Positions 10,153 through 22,719 of a stretch of 64,000 bases of DNA are shown in pieces. The notes under the pieces were generated by a model. That model made no database searches. It worked only from the letters and a program-made list of their open reading frames with translations, and was not told the origin of the DNA. The position numbers and the translations under genes were made by a program. This DNA is from Acetobacterium sp. KB-1 (GTDB lineage: Bacteria; Bacillota; Clostridia; Eubacteriales; Eubacteriaceae), in the NCBI RefSeq assembly GCF_003260995.1, contig NZ_CP030040.1, positions 2,775,176 to 2,839,175 on the forward strand. The letters are read 5' to 3'. Within the stretch, counting starts at the first letter, position 1. Each line of letters opens with the position of its first letter.

Positions 10153-11418
10153 TTAAGCGTGTTCGATCTCCAAGCGACAGGCATTCATGTACTGGAGGAT
10201 TTTTGCGACACCAAAGGTCAAAGCGGTGATGATCAGATAAATTCCAATTAAACCAGAACTCAATTTATCATAGAGCTGGCCAAAAATAATTTGTCCAATG
10301 GGCATAAAAGCCGTGGATAGAGCGGTGGTCAGGGCCATGGTTTTACCCATTAAATTTTGGGGGACCTGCAGCTGAATAAAGGTCAGCGCCTGGATGTTGA
10401 CATTGGCAACAAAAAACATCAGTATAAATCCGAACAGGGTAAAGAGGATATAAGCGGTCAGATGCGGTGGAGTGCTACCAAGTAGCCAGGGGGTTAAACT
10501 CAAACCCATCCCCAGAATACCAATGCCCATAAGGATAAAGAGCCGATGCAGCTTTTCAAAAGGATTATATTTAGCAACAACTGTCGAAAAGATAGCTCCG
10601 ATAATCATCCCCATTCCCAGTAGGCCTTCAGAGATGCCGTAGAGTTGATCGGATACCCCCAGAATAATCTTTTCGACATAGGGCACACCCACCGTATAAA
10701 GTGGGGTCATAAAAAGATTGATTCCGGCTGCCATAAACAAGATGTATAAAACAAAGGGTTTATCCTGAGATAAGAATTTAAGCGTTGCTTTAATATCTTT
10801 GGCATAAGTCACAAGTGGCGAGGCGTTCATTTTGCTTTTTTTAAAAGGGATGGTTAAGAACAATTCCATTACACCAGAAACAAAAAAACTGATCATATTA
10901 ATTATCAGAATAACCTTAAGCCCCAAGATCCCATACAAGAATCCCGCTGAGATGGGACCGAGTAACATCGTTAGAGCACTGATCTGACTGATCATACTGT
11001 TTCCAGCATTATAATGTTCAGGGGCAATGACGCTGGGGATGCTGGCCCGGACAGTGGGCTCATAAACACTGTTAATAATCGACAAAACAAAGATGAGAAT
11101 CCCGATCCAGAGGATTTGCTGGTCATTGCCATAAATGAAAGCAGCAAAAAAAGCAATGATAATGGTGCAACAAAAATCGAGGACGACCATCATCCGTTTT
11201 TTACTCATCCGGTCGGCAATCGCACCGCCAATCGGTGCCAGGAAAATGGCCGGTAAAATGGATAGCGAAATAATCAGGGAAAACACCGCGGCCGAGCCGG
11301 TAAGATCAAGAATGTAAAGTGAAAAGGCGAAGCGCTGCATGGCATTGCCAAACATGCTGATGAATTGTCCGATGCCAATAATAACGAAATTTTTATTGAA
11401 TAATTTTTCTGCTTTCAT
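10153..11418 (-). CDS. MFS efflux transporter under TetR control
   Basis: This 421-residue protein has about 12 hydrophobic segments and the organisation of the MefA/EntS-like MFS group (early GGAIADRMSKKRMM loop). Such proteins export macrolides, siderophores or other small hydrophobic molecules. It is divergent from a TetR gene. The shared 180-bp region carries a near-consensus promoter for this gene flanked by two related palindromes, so it is almost surely repressed by the neighbour. Induction by a toxic substrate is the expected mode. Confidence 0.88.
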   Translation of the reverse strand: MKAEKLFNKNFVIIGIGQFISMFGNAMQRFAFSLYILDLTGSAAVFSLIISLSILPAIFLAPIGGAIADRMSKKRMMVVLDFCCTIIIAFFAAFIYGNDQQILWIGILIFVLSIINSVYEPTVRASIPSVIAPEHYNAGNSMISQISALTMLLGPISAGFLYGILGLKVILIINMISFFVSGVMELFLTIPFKKSKMNASPLVTYAKDIKATLKFLSQDKPFVLYILFMAAGINLFMTPLYTVGVPYVEKIILGVSDQLYGISEGLLGMGMIIGAIFSTVVAKYNPFEKLHRLFILMGIGILGMGLSLTPWLLGSTPPHLTAYILFTLFGFILMFFVANVNIQALTFIQLQVPQNLMGKTMALTTALSTAFMPIGQIIFGQLYDKLSSGLIGIYLIITALTFGVAKILQYMNACRLEIEHA

Positions 11419-11432
11419 ATCAACCTCCTAAA

Positions 11433-11513
11433 AATGAAATATAGTTCACTTTTATAATCAGTATAGGTTATCATAAATCGATTGTCAATAAAAAAAATGA
11501 ACGATAGTTCATT
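11433..11513 (-). promoter_or_regulatory. MFS promoter with two TetR-type operators
   Basis: On the reverse strand TTGACA (11483-11488), a 17-bp spacer and TATACT (11460-11465) form a near-perfect promoter. One operator, AATGAACGATAGTTCATT (11496-11513), lies just upstream of the -35 box. A related site, AATGAAATATAGTTCACTT (11433-11451), lies downstream of the start point. Binding at both would block the promoter. Confidence 0.85.
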
Positions 11514-11525
11514 TTTAACAAGATC

Positions 11526-11554
11526 TTGCAAAATAATCACTTTCAGACTATCCT
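11526..11554 (+). promoter_or_regulatory. Putative promoter of the TetR gene
   Basis: TTGCAA (11526-11531) and TATCCT (11549-11554) are 17 bp apart. The AATGAAC operator lies immediately upstream, so autorepression is possible. Confidence 0.5.
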
Positions 11555-11599
11555 TAAGAAGAGTTAGAGGATGTTTATAGAGAAGGCAGGGGTAGGAAA

Positions 11600-12208
11600 A
11601 TGGAGAAAGAAAAGAAAATCCAGGAGCGAACCATTTTAAATCGACAAAAAATATTAAAAGCGGCAAAACACTTGTTTAATGTGAAGGGTTATTATCATAC
11701 CAATACCAAAGAAATTGCCAAGGAGGCCGGGGTTGCAACCGGCAGCTTTTATAATTATTTTCCGGATAAATTAAGCATTTTTCAGGAGATTATGATCATC
11801 CATCTGGAAAGAAATGTTGCGGATTTATGCGAACTGACACAAAATCTCAATGAGAAGCCGGATCATGCCAAAGCGGCGATTATAAAATACGTTCATAATG
11901 GCATGGATCATGCGTTTGAAAATCAGGTTATGTTTCAGGACTTTGACAGTATTCTCCTGGCAAATCCTGAATTAAACAAAATTATCGGCGCGTTCTATGA
12001 CAAAATAATAACCGGAATTTATGACTTCTGTAAAGATAGTCCCCATGTCATAAAGCGCACCGCCAATCCTCTGGTGATGTCTCAAATGGCTTATTTTCTG
12101 GTTCAGGGCACCTCCGAATTAATGGCTAAACTACCGGAAGATGTCGACAAAAGAGAATATGAGGAGCAATTGGCACAAATTGTCTATTGGTATCTATTTG
12201 ATAACTAA
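11600..12208 (+). CDS. TetR/AcrR family repressor of the divergent MFS gene
   Basis: The 202-residue protein has an N-terminal TetR helix-turn-helix (about residues 12-58; TNTKEIAKEAGVATGSFYNYFPDK is the recognition region) and a helical ligand-binding C-terminal part. It is transcribed divergently from the MFS exporter, and paired palindromes lie between the two genes. It is therefore the likely ligand-responsive repressor of that exporter and perhaps of itself. Confidence 0.92.
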   Translation: MEKEKKIQERTILNRQKILKAAKHLFNVKGYYHTNTKEIAKEAGVATGSFYNYFPDKLSIFQEIMIIHLERNVADLCELTQNLNEKPDHAKAAIIKYVHNGMDHAFENQVMFQDFDSILLANPELNKIIGAFYDKIITGIYDFCKDSPHVIKRTANPLVMSQMAYFLVQGTSELMAKLPEDVDKREYEEQLAQIVYWYLFDN

Positions 12209-12264
12209 AACGCGTAAATATGAGGGGCCGGATGATAAATTAAAAAAAAGGTATTCTCACATTA

Positions 12265-12372
12265 ATGCGGTCGGAATTGCCATTCGCGGCCGTAGTATGT
12301 GTTGTTATTGGAGAAATCTATACAGGACCTGGTTTTCTTGCGGTCTCAACTTTATTATTGGGGTTCATATAG
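12265..12372 (+). CDS. Possible 35-residue membrane peptide or gene remnant
   Basis: An ATG-started frame encodes a short, largely hydrophobic peptide with a run AAVVCVVIG and a GPGFLAVSTLLLG segment. The ribosome site is weak (AAAGG). The composition resembles a fragment of a membrane transporter more than random sequence, but I do not recognise a family. It lies in the gap between the TetR gene and the convergent ABC operon and may be a decayed gene end. Confidence 0.25.
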   Translation: MRSELPFAAVVCVVIGEIYTGPGFLAVSTLLLGFI

Positions 12373-12398
12373 GGCTTATTTAATAATCTCAAATCCGC

Positions 12399-13412
12399 TC
12401 AAATCTTAAGACAATTACGCTTTTCAATCAGTAGATTAACCGTCGTGTGATCATCAAATAACTTAAAGCTGCGAAACAAAACATCCGCCTTTAGGGTGAG
12501 CCCATTAGCCTTGATCGTATAGCTTAAAATGTTACCCCTTAAGGTGTGCTCTTTAATGATGCCAGTGAACTGATAGGCTTCGTTTCGAAACGCATGGGGC
12601 TCGGACGAGATTTCCACTGTTTCCGGACGGATGGCGATTTTTTGTCCATCAGGATAATCTTCGCCGGAAATAGTTGAAAAGACCTGGCCGGGAATAATAT
12701 TGTAATTACCCATAAACTCTGCTGCAAAATAGGTGCTTGGTGCCGTATAGATGTCAAAGGGTTTTCCGGATTGCTCAATTTTGCCATTGTTAAACAGGTG
12801 AATGACATCCGACATAATCATCGCTTCATTTTGGTCATGGGTCACAAAAACGGAGGTGATCTTCATTTCGTTATGAATTTCTCTAATCCGGGCTTGTAGT
12901 GAACGCCTCAGTTTGGCATCAATGGCGCTTAGGGGTTCATCCAGTAACAGCACCTTGGGTTTGGTTACGATGGACCGGGCAATGGCAACCCGTTGTTGCT
13001 GGCCGCCGGAAAGCTGAGCCGGATAGTGGTGCTCCTTTCCTGTAAGTTCCACCATCTGGATGGCATTGCGAGCTTTTTCATCAATGATTTCCGGCTTCAT
13101 TTTTTTAAGCTTGAGTCCATAACGGATGTTCTCCAGAACAGTCATATTGGGAAACAGACTGTATTGCTGAAAAATCATCCCGATATCCCGATCCTTGGGG
13201 TCTTTATGGGTGATGTCCTGGCCACCTAAAATAATCTGGCCATCCGAAATGGTTTCCAGACCAGAAAGCACCCGCAGTAAGGTGCTTTTGCCGCACCCGG
13301 AAGGTCCGAGCAGGGTCACAAAACTCCCGGCTTCAATGACCAGATCAAGATTTTTTAAAACGTGATTTTTGCCATAAAAGTGATTGATGTTTTTTAATTC
13401 AATGGTTGCCAT
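12399..13412 (-). CDS. ABC transporter ATP-binding protein, phosphonate/spermidine/iron-type
   Basis: The 337-residue ATPase has Walker A GPSGCGKST (residues about 36-44), the signature LSGGQQQR and Walker B VLLLDEPLSAID, and a C-terminal TOBE-like regulatory region. This length and plan match PotA/FbpC/PhnT-type importers. It is the last gene of a five-gene minus-strand operon and starts one base after the upstream permease stop, with GGAGG as ribosome site. With the two permeases and the binding lipoprotein it forms a complete importer. The phosphodiesterase in the operon points to a phosphorus-containing substrate. Confidence 0.92.
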   Translation of the reverse strand: MATIELKNINHFYGKNHVLKNLDLVIEAGSFVTLLGPSGCGKSTLLRVLSGLETISDGQIILGGQDITHKDPKDRDIGMIFQQYSLFPNMTVLENIRYGLKLKKMKPEIIDEKARNAIQMVELTGKEHHYPAQLSGGQQQRVAIARSIVTKPKVLLLDEPLSAIDAKLRRSLQARIREIHNEMKITSVFVTHDQNEAMIMSDVIHLFNNGKIEQSGKPFDIYTAPSTYFAAEFMGNYNIIPGQVFSTISGEDYPDGQKIAIRPETVEISSEPHAFRNEAYQFTGIIKEHTLRGNILSYTIKANGLTLKADVLFRSFKLFDDHTTVNLLIEKRNCLKI

Positions 13413-17369: not shown

Positions 17370-17480
17370 ATTGATAATATTCTGATTGCCCCCCTGTACA
17401 ATCGAAATATTATGGTCAGAAGCGGGTTATTCTTTATTCACAGTCGGAGAGTTGCTTATTAATGAGCGACTCTTTGTTTT
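17370..17480 (+). promoter_or_regulatory. Structured leader with intrinsic terminator (attenuator candidate)
   Basis: In the leader of the CheX-fusion gene, AATATT-ct-GATTG (17376-17388) can pair with CAATC-ga-AATATT (17399-17411). A terminator hairpin follows: AGAGTTGCT (17448-17456) pairs with AGCGACTCT (17465-17473), then TTGTTTT. A folded domain ahead of a terminator 50 bases before a gene is the layout of a transcription attenuator. It matches no riboswitch class that I recognise. Confidence 0.5.
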
Positions 17481-17529: not shown

Positions 17530-18438
17530 ATGTTTAATCAGTATTTTGGCAATTATCTTCTGGAGAAAAATTTAATCAAACCAGAAGAACTCAGAATGGT
17601 TTTAGCACAACAGCAATCAGTCAAGGTGAAATTAGGTGTTCTGGCGATTGATGCTGGTTATATGAATGCAGAGCAAGTTGATAAAATCCATAAGCTTCAG
17701 GCAGCAAAGGATAAAAGATTTGGCGAATTAGCCATTGAGGAAGGGTACCTTATTGAAAATCAGGTGGTCGAACTGCTAAACGCCCAAAAAAAATCAAATA
17801 GTTTATTGGGACAGCTTCTTATTGAGAAGGGCATCTTTTCCCTGGGGCAATATGAAGACGCGATGCTTCAATACAAAGCAGATTCTAAGCTGACTGGCGA
17901 TGAGATCCAGGTGCTTAAAAACAATGACATCACGAAAATTGCAGAAATATTTCTAAAAAATTTATCAGGGGATGATGATCGAATACTTCGTGACTATTTT
18001 GAACTTTTCCTTAGAAATATTGTCCGCTTTATCGATGATGAAATCCGGATGGAAGCCGCAGTTACCGTGGATTCCTATGCCTATGATTATCTGGTTACTC
18101 AGGGAACTGAAGGCGAGTATAATTTCTTTAGCGGTTTTGCAGCTTCGGAAACAGTGCTGGCACAGTTTGCTGGTATTTATGCAGAAGAAGAGATTAGTGG
18201 GATGAACGAACTGGCGATCGATGCGTTGGGCGAATTTATGAACTGTCATAATGGGTTATTCTTATCTCAACTGGCCCATCGAGGGATTGAGCTGGATCTG
18301 CTGGTCACAGAAGTAAAAAAAGCTGGTGAGGTAAAACCAACAGGAGCACTGTACGTGATTCCCTGTTATTTAAGCTTTGGAAAAATCGATTTTCTGTATG
18401 CGGCTACCAGCCCAAATTTTGTTCTAAAAAACTGTTAG
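17530..18438 (+). CDS. Four-repeat MshEN-like domain fused to a CheX-like domain
   Basis: The 302-residue protein starts at ATG 17530 with GAAAGGAA upstream. Residues 6-115 hold four units of a repeat with an exact 29-residue period (FG at 6, LG at 35, FG at 64, LG at 93), each followed by a G/N-containing turn and a helix ending in Q. This resembles the motif pair of MshEN (type II secretion ATPase N-terminal) domains, some of which bind cyclic di-GMP. After a linker, the C-terminal half is CheX/CheC-like, with the ExxN phosphatase signature in GEFMNCHNG. CheY and a CheA-like kinase follow. A ligand-gated CheY phosphatase is the likely role; this is inference. Confidence 0.75.
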   Translation: MFNQYFGNYLLEKNLIKPEELRMVLAQQQSVKVKLGVLAIDAGYMNAEQVDKIHKLQAAKDKRFGELAIEEGYLIENQVVELLNAQKKSNSLLGQLLIEKGIFSLGQYEDAMLQYKADSKLTGDEIQVLKNNDITKIAEIFLKNLSGDDDRILRDYFELFLRNIVRFIDDEIRMEAAVTVDSYAYDYLVTQGTEGEYNFFSGFAASETVLAQFAGIYAEEEISGMNELAIDALGEFMNCHNGLFLSQLAHRGIELDLLVTEVKKAGEVKPTGALYVIPCYLSFGKIDFLYAATSPNFVLKNC

Positions 18439-18481
18439 TAACACCCTAGGATTTTAAAATAAGTAAGAGGAGGCGTTTCTT

Positions 18482-18841
18482 ATGGCTAAAATATTGATTG
18501 TGGATGACTCAGCAGTATCCCGAAAAAAACTCAGAAAAATATTGGAAACAGCAAATCACGAAATTATTGGGGAAGCCGGTGATGGCGCGGTGGGTCTTAA
18601 AAAATATCAAGACCTATCCCCTGATCTGGTCACGATGGACATTACCATGCCGGATGTCGATGGCATTACCGTTTTAAAAAATATTATCAAAGTTAATCCG
18701 GCGGCTAAAGTCGTGATGATTACCGCCCTCGGTAAAGGCAGTACGATTCTGGAGGCCCTTAATGCCGGTGCTAAAAATTATATTACCAAACCTTTTGCCA
18801 ATGATCAGGTGATCACGACGATAGCAGAAGCATTAGCTTAA
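18482..18841 (+). CDS. cheY: CheY-like single-domain response regulator
   Basis: This 119-residue protein is a stand-alone receiver domain. Acidic pocket residues Asp8/Asp9, the phosphorylation site Asp53 (VTMDITMPD), the conserved Thr/Ser after ALG and Lys in ITKPFAN are all present. It has a strong ribosome site (GAGGAGG) and lies between the CheX-fusion gene and the HPt kinase gene, which suggests a local circuit: phosphorylation by the kinase, dephosphorylation by the CheX fusion. Output could be motility or another process. The gene symbol reflects family only. Confidence 0.88.
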   Translation: MAKILIVDDSAVSRKKLRKILETANHEIIGEAGDGAVGLKKYQDLSPDLVTMDITMPDVDGITVLKNIIKVNPAAKVVMITALGKGSTILEALNAGAKNYITKPFANDQVITTIAEALA

Positions 18842-18875
18842 TTTTTAGCTTGATTTTGGAAGGACGAGAGATCTA

Positions 18876-20816
18876 ATGATTGAAACGATTGCTAAACTGG
18901 CGCAGGCGGTTCCAACCTTTTCGGCGATGGAGAGGGGAAACACGATTCATCATTACTTTGAACAAAACAAAGAAGCGGAAGGCGTTGTTATTGTCAATGA
19001 CGAACAACCAATCGGTATTTTGATGCGGAACGATTTCTACCAGAAAATAGGCAGCCAATTTGGCTATGCCTTGTATATGGACCGCGATGTGACCCTACTG
19101 ATGAAATCAGATCTGACCTGTGTGGATAAAAGCTGTGATATGGCTAAGCTTGGTTTTATTGCCATGAGCAGAAACCAGGACAGTATTTATGATTTTATCG
19201 TGATTCTCGATAATAAAAATTATGCCGGGGTTGTTAATATCAGAGAGTTTCTAATTGAAATGTCTAAAACCAAGGAACGAGAAATCAAACTTTTAAGTGC
19301 TCAGCAGCGGATCTTAAAGCAAACCCATGAAACCGAGAAACGGCATCGCATTGAGATTGAGCAAAAAAATGCCGCCATCAAGAATCTTTTGGATCATGCC
19401 GGACAAGGGTTTCTTTTCTTTGGCAATGACCTGCTTATTTCTGAAGAATACAGCCGGGAATGTGATAGTATTTTTGGCGTTTCAATCGGTCGGCAACCTT
19501 TTTTAGAAGTGCTTAAACGTTATGTTGACACCGACGGTATCAGGATGATGCAAAATGTTTTTGAAAATGTCTTTCTCAGTGGTGATGCAACACAAAATAA
19601 GGTTTACCTGTCGATCCTACCGCCGGAATTAAAAATTCATGAGCGGTATATTCACACGGAGTATAAAATTATTCCCCACGAGACGGGGAAATCAATTATG
19701 ATGATTCTGACGGATGTGACGCAAAAAAAAGCCTTGGAGCTAAAAACGATAGAAGAAAAAAATAATATTAAGCTGATTGTCCGGGCCATCAGCAGTAAAA
19801 GCGAAATTACTCAGTCCATCGAGGAATTGCAGAGCTTTATAAAAAAAGATGTCTTGCCGCTATTGGATAACAAGCAGAGCCCCCAATTAATTTTGCAGTA
19901 TGTCTTTCGGATTGTTCATACCATGAAGGGTGATTTTGCTCTGAATGGCCTTTTTCACACCTCCCAAGGTTTACATCGGTTGGAAGACGCTTTAAGTGAG
20001 ATGCAAAACCGGATAAAAACCATTACTAACGATGAAATCCGGAAATTTATTGAGCAGATTGACTGCGATCAACTGTTAGAAAAAGATAGCGAAATTATTA
20101 CTGAGGCGCTGGGAGCCCAGTATTTTGAAAATGAAGATCGCGTGACGGTCAGTCGGCAGCGGGTTGCCGAAATCGAAAATAAAATTGTGGCGGTGTTCCA
20201 AAAAGAAGAGCAAACTGAGATTATTAAGCTATTTCACAGTCTTTTCTTCATTAATGTAAAAGACCTGATTAGGGATTATAATGATTATGTAAAGACGCTG
20301 GCGGATCGTTTTGGCAAAGATATTGATGATATCATCATTAGTGGGGATGATGTGTTTATTGACAGAGATCGCTATGCTTCTTTTATGAAATCGCTGGTTC
20401 ATGTGTTTCGTAATATGGCTGACCATGGCATTGAAGACCCGGATGAGCGCGAGGGCGCGGGAAAATCGGAATGCGGGGAAATTACCTGTGAGCTTAAAAA
20501 TGAAGGCGACCACTTTTTAATCTCTCTGGCGGATGACGGCAAGGGCATTGATCTGGAGATTATCCAGAAAAAAGCACTGGAAAAGCAAATTTATTCAGCT
20601 GAAGAGTTTGCAACACTCACCCGGGAACAAAGACTGGCAACGATTTTTCTGGACGACTTTTCAACCAAAAACACCGTCGATTTGTATTCCGGCAGAGGTG
20701 TGGGTCTGGCCGCAGTCAATGCCGAAATCAGCGCGATCGGTGGCGAAATAGCAATCGACTCGGAGCTCGGTAAGTATACCCGTTTCACCTTTGTTGTGCC
20801 ATATGAGAAACAGTAA
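18876..20816 (+). CDS. CheA-like histidine kinase with CBS-like, PAS-like and HPt domains
   Basis: The 646-residue protein seems soluble. Residues 1-130 resemble a CBS-type pair as found in front of EAL or GGDEF proteins. A coiled-coil (about 131-170) and a PAS-like segment (about 171-285) follow. An HPt domain holds the phosphorylated His in VHTMKGDF (near 347). The C-terminal ATPase is CheA-like: N box FRNMADHGIEDPDERE (near 507), G1 LADDGKGID (near 552) and GRGVGLAAV (near 607). No CheW-like regulatory domain is present. The DHGIEDP box is specific for HPt-using kinases. It probably phosphorylates the adjacent CheY. Confidence 0.85.
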   Translation: MIETIAKLAQAVPTFSAMERGNTIHHYFEQNKEAEGVVIVNDEQPIGILMRNDFYQKIGSQFGYALYMDRDVTLLMKSDLTCVDKSCDMAKLGFIAMSRNQDSIYDFIVILDNKNYAGVVNIREFLIEMSKTKEREIKLLSAQQRILKQTHETEKRHRIEIEQKNAAIKNLLDHAGQGFLFFGNDLLISEEYSRECDSIFGVSIGRQPFLEVLKRYVDTDGIRMMQNVFENVFLSGDATQNKVYLSILPPELKIHERYIHTEYKIIPHETGKSIMMILTDVTQKKALELKTIEEKNNIKLIVRAISSKSEITQSIEELQSFIKKDVLPLLDNKQSPQLILQYVFRIVHTMKGDFALNGLFHTSQGLHRLEDALSEMQNRIKTITNDEIRKFIEQIDCDQLLEKDSEIITEALGAQYFENEDRVTVSRQRVAEIENKIVAVFQKEEQTEIIKLFHSLFFINVKDLIRDYNDYVKTLADRFGKDIDDIIISGDDVFIDRDRYASFMKSLVHVFRNMADHGIEDPDEREGAGKSECGEITCELKNEGDHFLISLADDGKGIDLEIIQKKALEKQIYSAEEFATLTREQRLATIFLDDFSTKNTVDLYSGRGVGLAAVNAEISAIGGEIAIDSELGKYTRFTFVVPYEKQ

Positions 20817-20906: not shown

Positions 20907-20935
20907 TTGACAGATGCAGCCAACTAATTTATAGT
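20907..20935 (+). promoter_or_regulatory. Sigma-A promoter of the 7TM-GGDEF gene
   Basis: TTGACA (20907-20912), a 17-bp spacer and TATAGT (20930-20935) precede the start at 20983. The arms AACTAA and TTAGTT flank the -10 box and may be an operator. Confidence 0.7.
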
Positions 20936-20982: not shown

Positions 20983-22719
20983 ATGGAAAGCGAACTCAGA
21001 AAGACAGAAAAAAGAAATAAGAGCGTCGTCATATCGGTTGTATTGATCTTTGTTGTGACGGTGCTCTTTTTAGCGAGTGTACACAGTAATGAGGATCTTA
21101 GTGTTATTGGAGAAAATGTGATAATCCTTTCTAAAAACTGGACAGTCGGTTATAACGAAGTGAAGGAGTCGGGCGTCAGTCTGCCGGTCGACCTTGAGGT
21201 TGAACCGGGTGCTACGTATGAGGCCTCAGTAATACTTCCAAAGGTTGCCAATCAGATGAATTATCTGCTGCTTCGATCATCAATGCAGGATATGATTGTT
21301 TATTTAGATGGCGAAGAAATCCATCGCGCGGAAAAACCTGTTGCCCGGGGAATAGCAGTTCCGGCGGCGAGTACCTGGGTGATGTTCAAGCTTCCTTCCG
21401 GTTTTCAGGGAAAAACCTTAAAACTGGTGTTAAAAAGTGGGGTAACTGCTTTTTCAGGTCATATTAATAAGGTCATCCTGGGAGAAGATTCGAGTCTGGT
21501 TTATTATGTGTTTAAGCAGGGGTTCAGCGGTTTTGTCGTTTTTCTGGTGTTATTCATCATGGGGATGATTTCGATTGTTTTTTCTTTTTTCTCAAAGAGT
21601 CTCGCCGACAATCGCTTTTTCTATTTAGGTTTACTAGTTGTATCAACCAGTGTCCTGATTTTATCGGAGGCCAGAATTTTGCAACTATTCACAGGAAATC
21701 GATACATTATCGGAGGGATCAGCTACCTGATGGTGCCGTTGATGGGATGCTTTTTTTCTTTGTATGTGAAAGAAACAATTTTTGTGAAACTACGGGACAA
21801 ACGGGTGATGCAGGTAACGGCGGGGCTGTACCTGGGTCTATTAATTACCGAAATACTCTTACAGGGATGGGGGCTCAGTGAATTTATTGAGATCATGAAC
21901 CTCATGTATTTCGTCATTTTTTTTAATGTCATCGTGTTTGTGCTGCTGATGGTGTCCGAGATTGTTAAAGAAAAAAATCAGAATGCAATACAATTTTTTA
22001 AATATATGAGTGTATTGTTCCTTAGTGTTATGCTTGAAGGGATTGCCTTTTTTACCAACCAATTTGACTATACATCGATTTTTTTAAGAATCGGCAGTCT
22101 TATCTTTTTTGGCTTGCTGTTGCTGGATTCCTATCTTTATTTTAAAAGGAGTCTTCAGAGTCAGAAGGAGCGAGATCTTTATGAAACCCTTGCCTACAAA
22201 GACGTTTTAACCGGTGGGAACAACCGGGCGGCATTTGAACGGGATTTTGAAAAAATCAGAAATAAAGAAGAACCTTTTAGACTGGTACTACTGGATTTAA
22301 ATGAACTGAAATACATCAATGATCACTATGGCCATACCGCTGGGGATGTCGCCATTAAGACCCTTTTTACAATGATGGATGAGGCGTTTAGGCCGGAGGG
22401 GGTGTGCTATCGAATTGGTGGCGATGAATTTGCCATCTTGATCGAAAATACCACCGAAACGGTTGTTAAGCTCAGTTCTCTCCAGCTGAGAAAACAGCTT
22501 AAACGGGCCGCCAGCCATTTTGAGTATCCCCTTGAAGTGGCAATCGGTACGGATGTTTACGAGGCTGAGGCCTGGGCGAATATAACCCGGTTTTATCATC
22601 ATGTGGATCAGAAAATGTATGCGGATAAACTTGAAATAAAGCAAATACGAAAAACAACGCTTGCGTCGAAGGCAAATAAAACAATCGGGTCGGTTCCTTC
22701 GCCGGTCTTGAAGAGGTAG
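20983..22719 (+). CDS. 7TM-DISM sensor diguanylate cyclase
   Basis: This 578-residue protein has an N-terminal membrane helix, an external beta-rich domain (about 40-175, DISM-type carbohydrate-binding-like), about seven membrane segments (about 180-395) and a C-terminal GGDEF domain. The catalytic motif is canonical (RIGGDEFAI, near 476-484), and the substrate-binding region LDLNELKYINDHYGH is intact, so cyclic di-GMP synthesis is expected. No inhibitory RxxD site is obvious. It follows the chemotaxis-like cassette but has its own promoter. The aldehyde dehydrogenase gene starts 9 bases after its stop. Confidence 0.92.
   Translation: MESELRKTEKRNKSVVISVVLIFVVTVLFLASVHSNEDLSVIGENVIILSKNWTVGYNEVKESGVSLPVDLEVEPGATYEASVILPKVANQMNYLLLRSSMQDMIVYLDGEEIHRAEKPVARGIAVPAASTWVMFKLPSGFQGKTLKLVLKSGVTAFSGHINKVILGEDSSLVYYVFKQGFSGFVVFLVLFIMGMISIVFSFFSKSLADNRFFYLGLLVVSTSVLILSEARILQLFTGNRYIIGGISYLMVPLMGCFFSLYVKETIFVKLRDKRVMQVTAGLYLGLLITEILLQGWGLSEFIEIMNLMYFVIFFNVIVFVLLMVSEIVKEKNQNAIQFFKYMSVLFLSVMLEGIAFFTNQFDYTSIFLRIGSLIFFGLLLLDSYLYFKRSLQSQKERDLYETLAYKDVLTGGNNRAAFERDFEKIRNKEEPFRLVLLDLNELKYINDHYGHTAGDVAIKTLFTMMDEAFRPEGVCYRIGGDEFAILIENTTETVVKLSSLQLRKQLKRAASHFEYPLEVAIGTDVYEAEAWANITRFYHHVDQKMYADKLEIKQIRKTTLASKANKTIGSVPSPVLKR

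Follow-up and report, generated by a model that had tools for sequence, protein, structure and literature searches.

Removal of the phosphate from phosphorylated CheY (CheY-P) through an ExxN motif is established for known CheX proteins. Input from cyclic di-GMP (c-di-GMP) to the chemotaxis phosphorelay is usually pictured as arriving via motor brakes (PilZ proteins) or receptors. The subject here is a locus that encodes a CheX domain fused to repeats resembling MshEN, a c-di-GMP-binding domain. It lies in a stretch of 64,000 nucleotides from Acetobacterium sp. KB-1 (contig NZ_CP030040.1, positions 2,775,176 to 2,839,175 of the forward strand), part of a genome of 3,988,268 bases. This whole stretch is called the window, and positions are counted from its first base. 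A check of open reading frames (ORFs) finds three of them in series on the + strand from 17530 to 20816, where the original prediction, made from the sequence alone, had placed them: the fusion, a stand-alone CheY and a kinase.

For the repeats, the described systems to compare are MshE and PilF. In MshE of Vibrio cholerae (PDB 5HTL), the MshEN motif RLGxx(L/V/I)(L/V/I)xxG(L/V/I)(L/V/I)xxxxLxxxLxxQ occurs twice, with a spacer of 5 residues (Wang et al. 2016, PMC5013675). The fusion shares this 24+5+24 pair, the Gly, Gln, Lys/Arg and Leu/Phe contacts, and the fold. It differs in having four motifs, the outer two of which are degenerate, and in carrying mostly His or Asn at position 21 of motif II. 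Its output is CheX, whereas that of MshE is an ATPase. PilF GSPII-B of Thermus thermophilus (PMC11731258) is alike in fold and in the Lys at position 1 of its first motif. In the second PilF motif, position 1 is Leu, where 34/35 members of the fusion family have Arg or Lys, and PilF is a pilus ATPase, unlike the CheX fusion.

The CheX half resembles the CheX proteins of Thermotoga maritima and Borrelia burgdorferi (1SQU/1XKO and 3HZH) in its fold over 144-147 residues, in the ExxN motif and in having a CheY partner. Those structures are of CheX alone, whereas here the domain is fused to MshEN. The kinase is like CheA in its sequence matches to P1 (HPt) and P4 (ATPase); it differs in having no P5/CheW-like domain, no detected P3, and an N-terminal CBS region of its own. 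In B. burgdorferi, c-di-GMP signalling has been proposed to affect CheX or CheY3 (PMC4013479). There the effect is indirect and involves a separate protein, PlzA, whereas here there is a direct fusion.

Wang et al. 2016 (PMC5013675) report in a single clause that MshEN occurs in association with CheA as well as with the CheX phosphatase, so the fusion as such is already in print. No experimental study of an MshEN-CheX fusion was found in a literature search that had most subscription papers outside its coverage. Measured against the accessible parts of these sources, the possibly new elements are the motif register, the His/Asn, the near-constant CheY, the kinase without a CheW-like domain, and the distribution.

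The fusion protein (302 aa, 17530-18438) is best read as a CheY-P phosphatase (CheX) with a four-motif MshEN array that would sense c-di-GMP, most likely via the pair of motifs II and III. From sequence and structural model, this reading is given a probability of roughly 0.6. It builds on three direct observations: what the domains are, that the positions for ligand and catalysis are conserved, and that a CheY is almost always next to the fusion.

The repeats are regular. The pairs F6G7, L35G36, F64G65 and L93G94 follow each other with an exact period of 29 residues. When residues 5-116 are compared with themselves (BLOSUM62), lag 29 is best at 0.80 per residue and lag 58 comes second; across lags 5 to 59, 0.80 is not reached by a single one of 5000 shuffles. 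A family alignment was made of 35 members, the window protein included, and all counts out of 35 refer to it. The spacing of 29/29/29 between the four motifs is kept in 35/35.

Motif I (residues 5-28, 17542-17613) is degenerate and has Tyr, not Arg, at position 1. Motifs II-III (residues 34-86, 17629-17787) form a 24+5+24 pair matching the c-di-GMP site of MshEN. Motif IV (residues 92-115, 17803-17874) is again degenerate, with Leu at position 1 and Tyr115 in place of the final Gln. Four repeats with an exact 29-residue period, followed by a CheX-like ExxN domain, is what the original prediction had described, and shuffles, alignment and fold all agree with it. The four are present but not equivalent: the ligand contacts known from MshE are kept only in motifs II and III.

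Profile searches identify the repeats as MshEN-like. NF053729, the NCBIfam model for an MshE-related c-di-GMP domain, scores 64.4 bits against the fusion protein, with a cut-off of 38, and matches 35/35 members at E<=0.001. A sequence profile of the family, run against the PDB, finds PilF (E 1.3e-8), MshE 5htl (E 1.3e-6) and CheX (E 8.6e-4).

An AlphaFold model was made from the 35-row alignment (mean predicted local distance difference test, or pLDDT, 86.1; predicted template modelling score, or pTM, 0.69). An earlier model from 9 rows was poor (pLDDT 49.8) and was discarded for this one. According to VIA-align, model residues 32-89 superpose on residues 7-64 of c-di-GMP-bound MshE 5htl with Z 11.1 and a root-mean-square deviation (rmsd) of 1.6 over 58 aligned residues. 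The model also superposes on the c-di-GMP-bound mutant of PilF GSPII-B, with Z 10.1. With a fold match as well as a profile match to MshE, the N-terminus of the fusion is predicted to have the MshEN fold. The likeness to MshEN that had been suggested from the letters alone is in this way borne out, both by hidden Markov model search and by superposition.

Some weak matches overlap the repeats as well: FumaraseC_C in 27/35 and DUF4388 in 25/35 members (E<=0.01), and EpsG in 34/35 (E<=0.001). All three stay below their cut-offs for the window protein. Another Clostridia genome holds an MshEN-like match (G192:C1:979440-979607) inside an open frame of 2730 residues.

MshEN contact positions were scored as 1, 2, 3, 17, 21 and 24 of each 24-residue motif. 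In motifs II (34-57) and III (63-86), position 1 is Lys or Arg in 35/35 and 34/35 members respectively, while both the Gly at position 3 and the final Gln (Q57, Q86) are found in 35/35 for either motif. Over the pair, 11/12 contact positions fit in 26 to 35 of the 35 members. The outer motifs are different: position 1 of motif I is Arg or Lys in 0/35, with the final Gln in 25/35, and motif IV has the final Gln in 0/35 and Tyr there in 33/35. By analogy with PilF, which has Lys at position 1 and binds c-di-GMP at 6 nM (PMC11731258), a Lys at this position is compatible with very tight binding.

Column entropy, computed on 31 sequences after removal of near-duplicates, follows the same division. 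Within motifs II-III, contacts have a mean of 0.56 and the hydrophobic core one of 0.77, while the remaining columns average 1.91. Only 1/20000 permutations is as low for contact versus remaining columns. Contact columns of the degenerate motifs have entropies of 1.16 (I) and 1.40 (IV).

The one deviation is position 21 of motif II, which is His54 in the window protein. It is His in 21/35 and Asn in 10/35. The equivalent residue in MshE is L29, a Leu that stacks on guanine (Wang et al. 2016, PMC5013675). Because this position is His/Asn and not the stacking Leu, the predicted c-di-GMP site in motifs II-III is well conserved but non-canonical. Retention of the key residues in homologues therefore holds for motifs II-III with this single departure.

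Several points weigh against a c-di-GMP-sensing phosphatase. Position 21 of motif II fits in only 2/35 members. The relaxed motif of Wang et al. is found for motif II in 2/35, for motif III in 29/35, and for I and IV in 0/35. According to the same paper, mutating conserved hydrophobic residues costs more than 10-fold in affinity, and L29R is one of eight changes in XpsE, which does not bind; several Ala variants of MshEN are still stabilised by c-di-GMP (PMC5013675). The best NF053729 stretch in the fusion protein is 6-55, which is motifs I-II and not II-III. In VIA-align, helical repeats can reach about Z 13 through their common arrangement. Plain Foldseek puts CheX-like chains at the top, and MshE is not among the best 50 matches listed. 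To this are added the Pfam score of the CheX domain and the lack of a correction for phylogeny in the FliM association, both given below. No c-di-GMP binding, phosphatase or phosphotransfer data on the fusion protein were found in the literature.

G7, D61 and Q95 are invariant in the 35 members, and Y115 is nearly so (window 17530-17880). No function in the described c-di-GMP site is assigned to D61, Q95 or Y115, which may contact CheX or CheY.

These three residues, together with the His/Asn at the stacking position in 31/35, are what favours a different explanation. In it, the MshEN-like array has lost c-di-GMP binding and instead serves in protein-protein contact or dimerisation, docking CheX on its partner, be it CheY, the kinase or a motility machine. 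This is harder to square with Q57 and Q86, which contact c-di-GMP in MshE and are invariant along with both Gly, or with the Lys/Arg at position 1 of both motifs. In addition, carriers in the class sample described below all have GGDEF matches (20/20). Loss of binding is for these reasons judged unlikely, if still a competitor to sensing by motifs II-III.

The CheX phosphatase domain (residues 145-293, 17962-18408) is predicted from its fold. These residues of the model match Thermotoga CheX 1squ with Z 17.6 and rmsd 2.3 over 146 aligned residues (VIA-align), and the CheX chains 1xko and 3hzh with Z 16.7 each. The ExxN motif is at 18232-18243. E235 is found in 33/35 members (Asp in the other 2), N238 in 35/35, and both in 33/35; in the family profile they line up with the corresponding Glu and Asn of Thermotoga CheX 1xko. 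By sequence, PF13690 (Pfam CheX) matches 30/35 members at E<=0.01, with a best value of 1.1e-10, and the NCBIfam model of Thermotogales CheX matches 3/35. The window protein itself scores 20.2 bits with PF13690, below the cut-off of 27. For the C-terminus, fold and ExxN thus agree with the original assignment to CheX, while the Pfam gathering score does not.

Since fold matches extend to FliM, FliY and CheC, and given this low score, the domain might also belong to the CheC/CheX/FliY/FliM fold as a binding or scaffold protein and not as a phosphatase. CheX proper is closer, however, at Z 15.2-17.6 versus <=10.0 for FliM, FliY and CheC, and the ExxN is kept next to a CheY with an intact D53. 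A scaffold role is accordingly rated as quite improbable, and the domain is taken below as a predicted phosphatase.

Where is the fusion found? Full or near-full-length fusions were counted. In a sample of relatives there are 9 loci in 8/61 genomes (60 relatives plus its own), all within the genus. A class sample has 21 loci in 20/391 genomes. A scan of named genomes gave 14 fusion loci, 6 of which were duplicates of genomes already counted and were dropped. Named carriers include Candidatus Formimonas warabiya, Clostridium akagii, a Pelotomaculum-labelled metagenome-assembled genome (MAG), Desulfobacter vibrioformis and a Desulforhopalus MAG. Viral contigs, searched with the fusion protein as query, yielded no match.

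Gene order was counted in the 34 loci other than the window. A stand-alone CheY adjoins the fusion on the same strand, with its start within 90 bp, in 33/34 loci, including one where it is degraded (L030). It is downstream in 24 loci and upstream in 9; L087 has none. The kinase is a different matter. It is third in order, with CheY in between, in 12/34 loci (interrupted in one of them, L031), all among the 16 closest relatives; the four of those without it are L026, L027, L028 and L030. None of the 18 distant loci has a kinase within 1.5 kb, although one of these (L089) is a 5.2-kb contig and is cut by the contig end.

Because CheY is near-constant and the kinase is confined to closer relatives, the fusion and CheY are the wider conserved unit, and the kinase is an addition or a loss. 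The compact three-gene circuit of the original prediction is in this sense one subfamily's form: its full order is restricted to that subfamily, and its first two genes are what is conserved more widely.

The window CheY (119 aa, 18482-18841, PF00072 98.5 bits) carries D8, D9, D53, T81 and K103, where D53 (codon 18638-18640) is the phospho-acceptor. D53 is kept in 33/34 of the best CheY hits per locus, a count that includes a non-adjacent hit in L087; it is lost in L030. There, beside the second fusion of A. tundrae, the CheY at 10239-10512 has a broken frame, a stop and no D53 position, while the fusion ORF is open. In L040 (6939-8003), the interval from fusion to kinase contains two tandem CheY genes, with 73% and 67% identity to the CheY of the window.

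The kinase (646 aa, 18876-20816) is built as CBS, linker, HPt and CheA-type ATPase. Its ATPase domain (residues 506-644, 20391-20807) scores 60.9 bits with PF02518 and matches CheA P4 1i5d at E 1.6e-30. The HPt domain (residues 322-393, 19839-20054) scores 25.9 bits with PF01627 as an isolated piece (cut-off 24.6) and 22 bits in the whole protein, and matches T. maritima CheA P1 at E 0.0032; its H348 (codon 19917-19919) is invariant in 4/4 aligned sequences. The CBS domain (residues 75-128, 19098-19259) is a weak match, at 23.6 bits with PF00571 on the N-terminal piece and a cut-off of 24.

No CheW-like domain (PF01584) is found in the kinase up to E=1, and none of the 7 CheW matches of the genome falls at its gene. 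No Pfam match to a P3 dimerisation domain is found up to E=1 either, although a divergent P3 could escape such a search. P1, P3, P4 and P5 are present in all CheA surveyed in PMC10782961. Since the P5/CheW-like domain is part of this core and is missing here, the 646-aa kinase is by this survey not a CheA; it probably works like one without the receptor-coupling part. Having no such domain and its own N-terminal CBS region, it would not be wired to chemoreceptors by the usual route. As had been proposed, then, the fusion gene is followed by CheY and a CheA-like HPt kinase without a CheW-like domain; Pfam and PDB sequence matches both say so.

Kinase orthologues are found in 5/19 genomes of the genus, some of which are 81-87% complete, and each is beside a fusion. 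One of these is split: in L031, a transposase-like ORF at 11315-12772, recognised by reading, interrupts the kinase, and the fusion and CheY ORFs are open. Other matches within the genus (E<=1e-30) cover only the C-terminal half and lie within larger, CheA-sized ORFs.

What does the unit act on? All carriers of the class sample have GGDEF (20/20), CheW (20/20) and a strong PilT-family match (20/20, E<=4.9e-99; 187/391 genomes overall exceed the family cut-off). FliM is found in 18/20 carriers versus 145/391 genomes overall. Counted by genus this becomes 12/13 carriers versus 74/209 others (Fisher 6e-5, with phylogeny ignored); of the 20 carriers, 5 share one genus and 10 one family. Because of these counts for GGDEF, CheW, the PilT family and FliM, the output is probably motility in a broad sense, flagellar switch or pilus. 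No motility gene is among seven neighbours identified at three distant loci, L091 (three), L082 (three) and L080 (one). They encode a dehydrogenase, a HAD hydrolase, a pyridine-nucleotide oxidoreductase, a citrate transporter, a LytTR response regulator, a GHKL kinase and an SNF2 helicase.

It could be that the unit acts on type IV pili and not on the flagellar motor, with CheY-P and the phosphatase adjusting extension and retraction. This is a question of output and is compatible with a c-di-GMP-sensing phosphatase. The PilT-family match in every carrier fits it. So do carriers G197 and G413, which lack FliM and FliG, yet have PilT matches and a PilB-sized ORF (577 and 586 aa) with an MshEN match; that these are PilB is suggested by size. 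About 450 bp upstream of the second A. tundrae copy (L030) there is also an ORF that was judged PilT-like by reading its sequence. Yet nearly all carriers also have FliM, the two without flagellar markers are from one genus, and the L030 copy is the one with the degraded CheY. A pilus output is for now rather unlikely, though with a sizeable minority chance.

A GGDEF gene (20983-22719) lies directly downstream on the same strand and starts 166 bp after the kinase stop, which is the position the original prediction pointed to. This nearness suggests that its enzyme might be the dedicated c-di-GMP source for the phosphatase. The other loci argue otherwise. No GGDEF match is beside the 8 other Acetobacterium loci (of which L024 ends about 1.3 kb after the kinase), and none of the 34 loci has GGDEF directly downstream on the same strand; a GGDEF-like ORF is within 6.5 kb in 4/34 (L042, L047, L085 and L087). 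The genome has 45 GGDEF matches (E<=1e-20). A promoter-like site at 20907-20935 also precedes the gene, with 11/12 consensus matches. As the scan found 14 such sites versus 9.6 expected, this single consensus match is weak evidence. The position of the GGDEF gene is thus correct as described but is no evidence for it being part of the circuit, and a dedicated source is very improbable indeed.

The proposed working of the c-di-GMP-sensing phosphatase is as follows. Judging from domains and gene order, the soluble CBS-HPt kinase would autophosphorylate at His348 and pass the phosphate to Asp53 of the neighbouring CheY; where relatives lack this kinase, the phosphate would come from a canonical CheA. 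CheX, going by fold and motif, would remove the phosphate from CheY via E235/N238. Binding of c-di-GMP to residues 34-86 may alter how the repeat array packs on CheX via linker helices 123-141, and this could change phosphatase activity in either direction. CheY-P would then act on a motility machine. For most carriers this would be the flagellar switch; in the two without flagellar markers it may be type IV pili.

A bolder version is offered tentatively, at somewhat less than even odds. It holds that this is a widespread two-gene module, MshEN-CheX plus its own CheY, in which c-di-GMP would directly set the lifetime of CheY-P, and that the His/Asn marks a novel form of the c-di-GMP site. Where the receptor-free CBS-HPt kinase is added (some Acetobacterium, other Firmicutes and two sulfate-reducer loci), it would turn the module into a self-standing, chemosensory-like relay without chemoreceptors.

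If a phosphatase both carries a c-di-GMP sensor and is accompanied by a dedicated CheY, the path from c-di-GMP to the chemotaxis phosphorelay would be very short. The fusion suggests that c-di-GMP and CheY signalling, usually thought separate, are directly linked. It would give acetogens and other Clostridia a candidate connection between surface or biofilm state and motility.

A c-di-GMP riboswitch before the operon was also considered and rejected: no Rfam match in the window reaches the gathering score, and between 17100 and 17600 there are only implausible matches at E<=5. The leader does hold a terminator-like hairpin (17445-17476, + strand), about 54 bases ahead of the fusion's start codon. 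Among 7 leaders compared, a comparable stem could be aligned in 5. Of its 12 predicted pairs, 4 are changed on both sides with pairing kept, and 5 are broken in 1-2 sequences. The hairpin is a possible attenuator.

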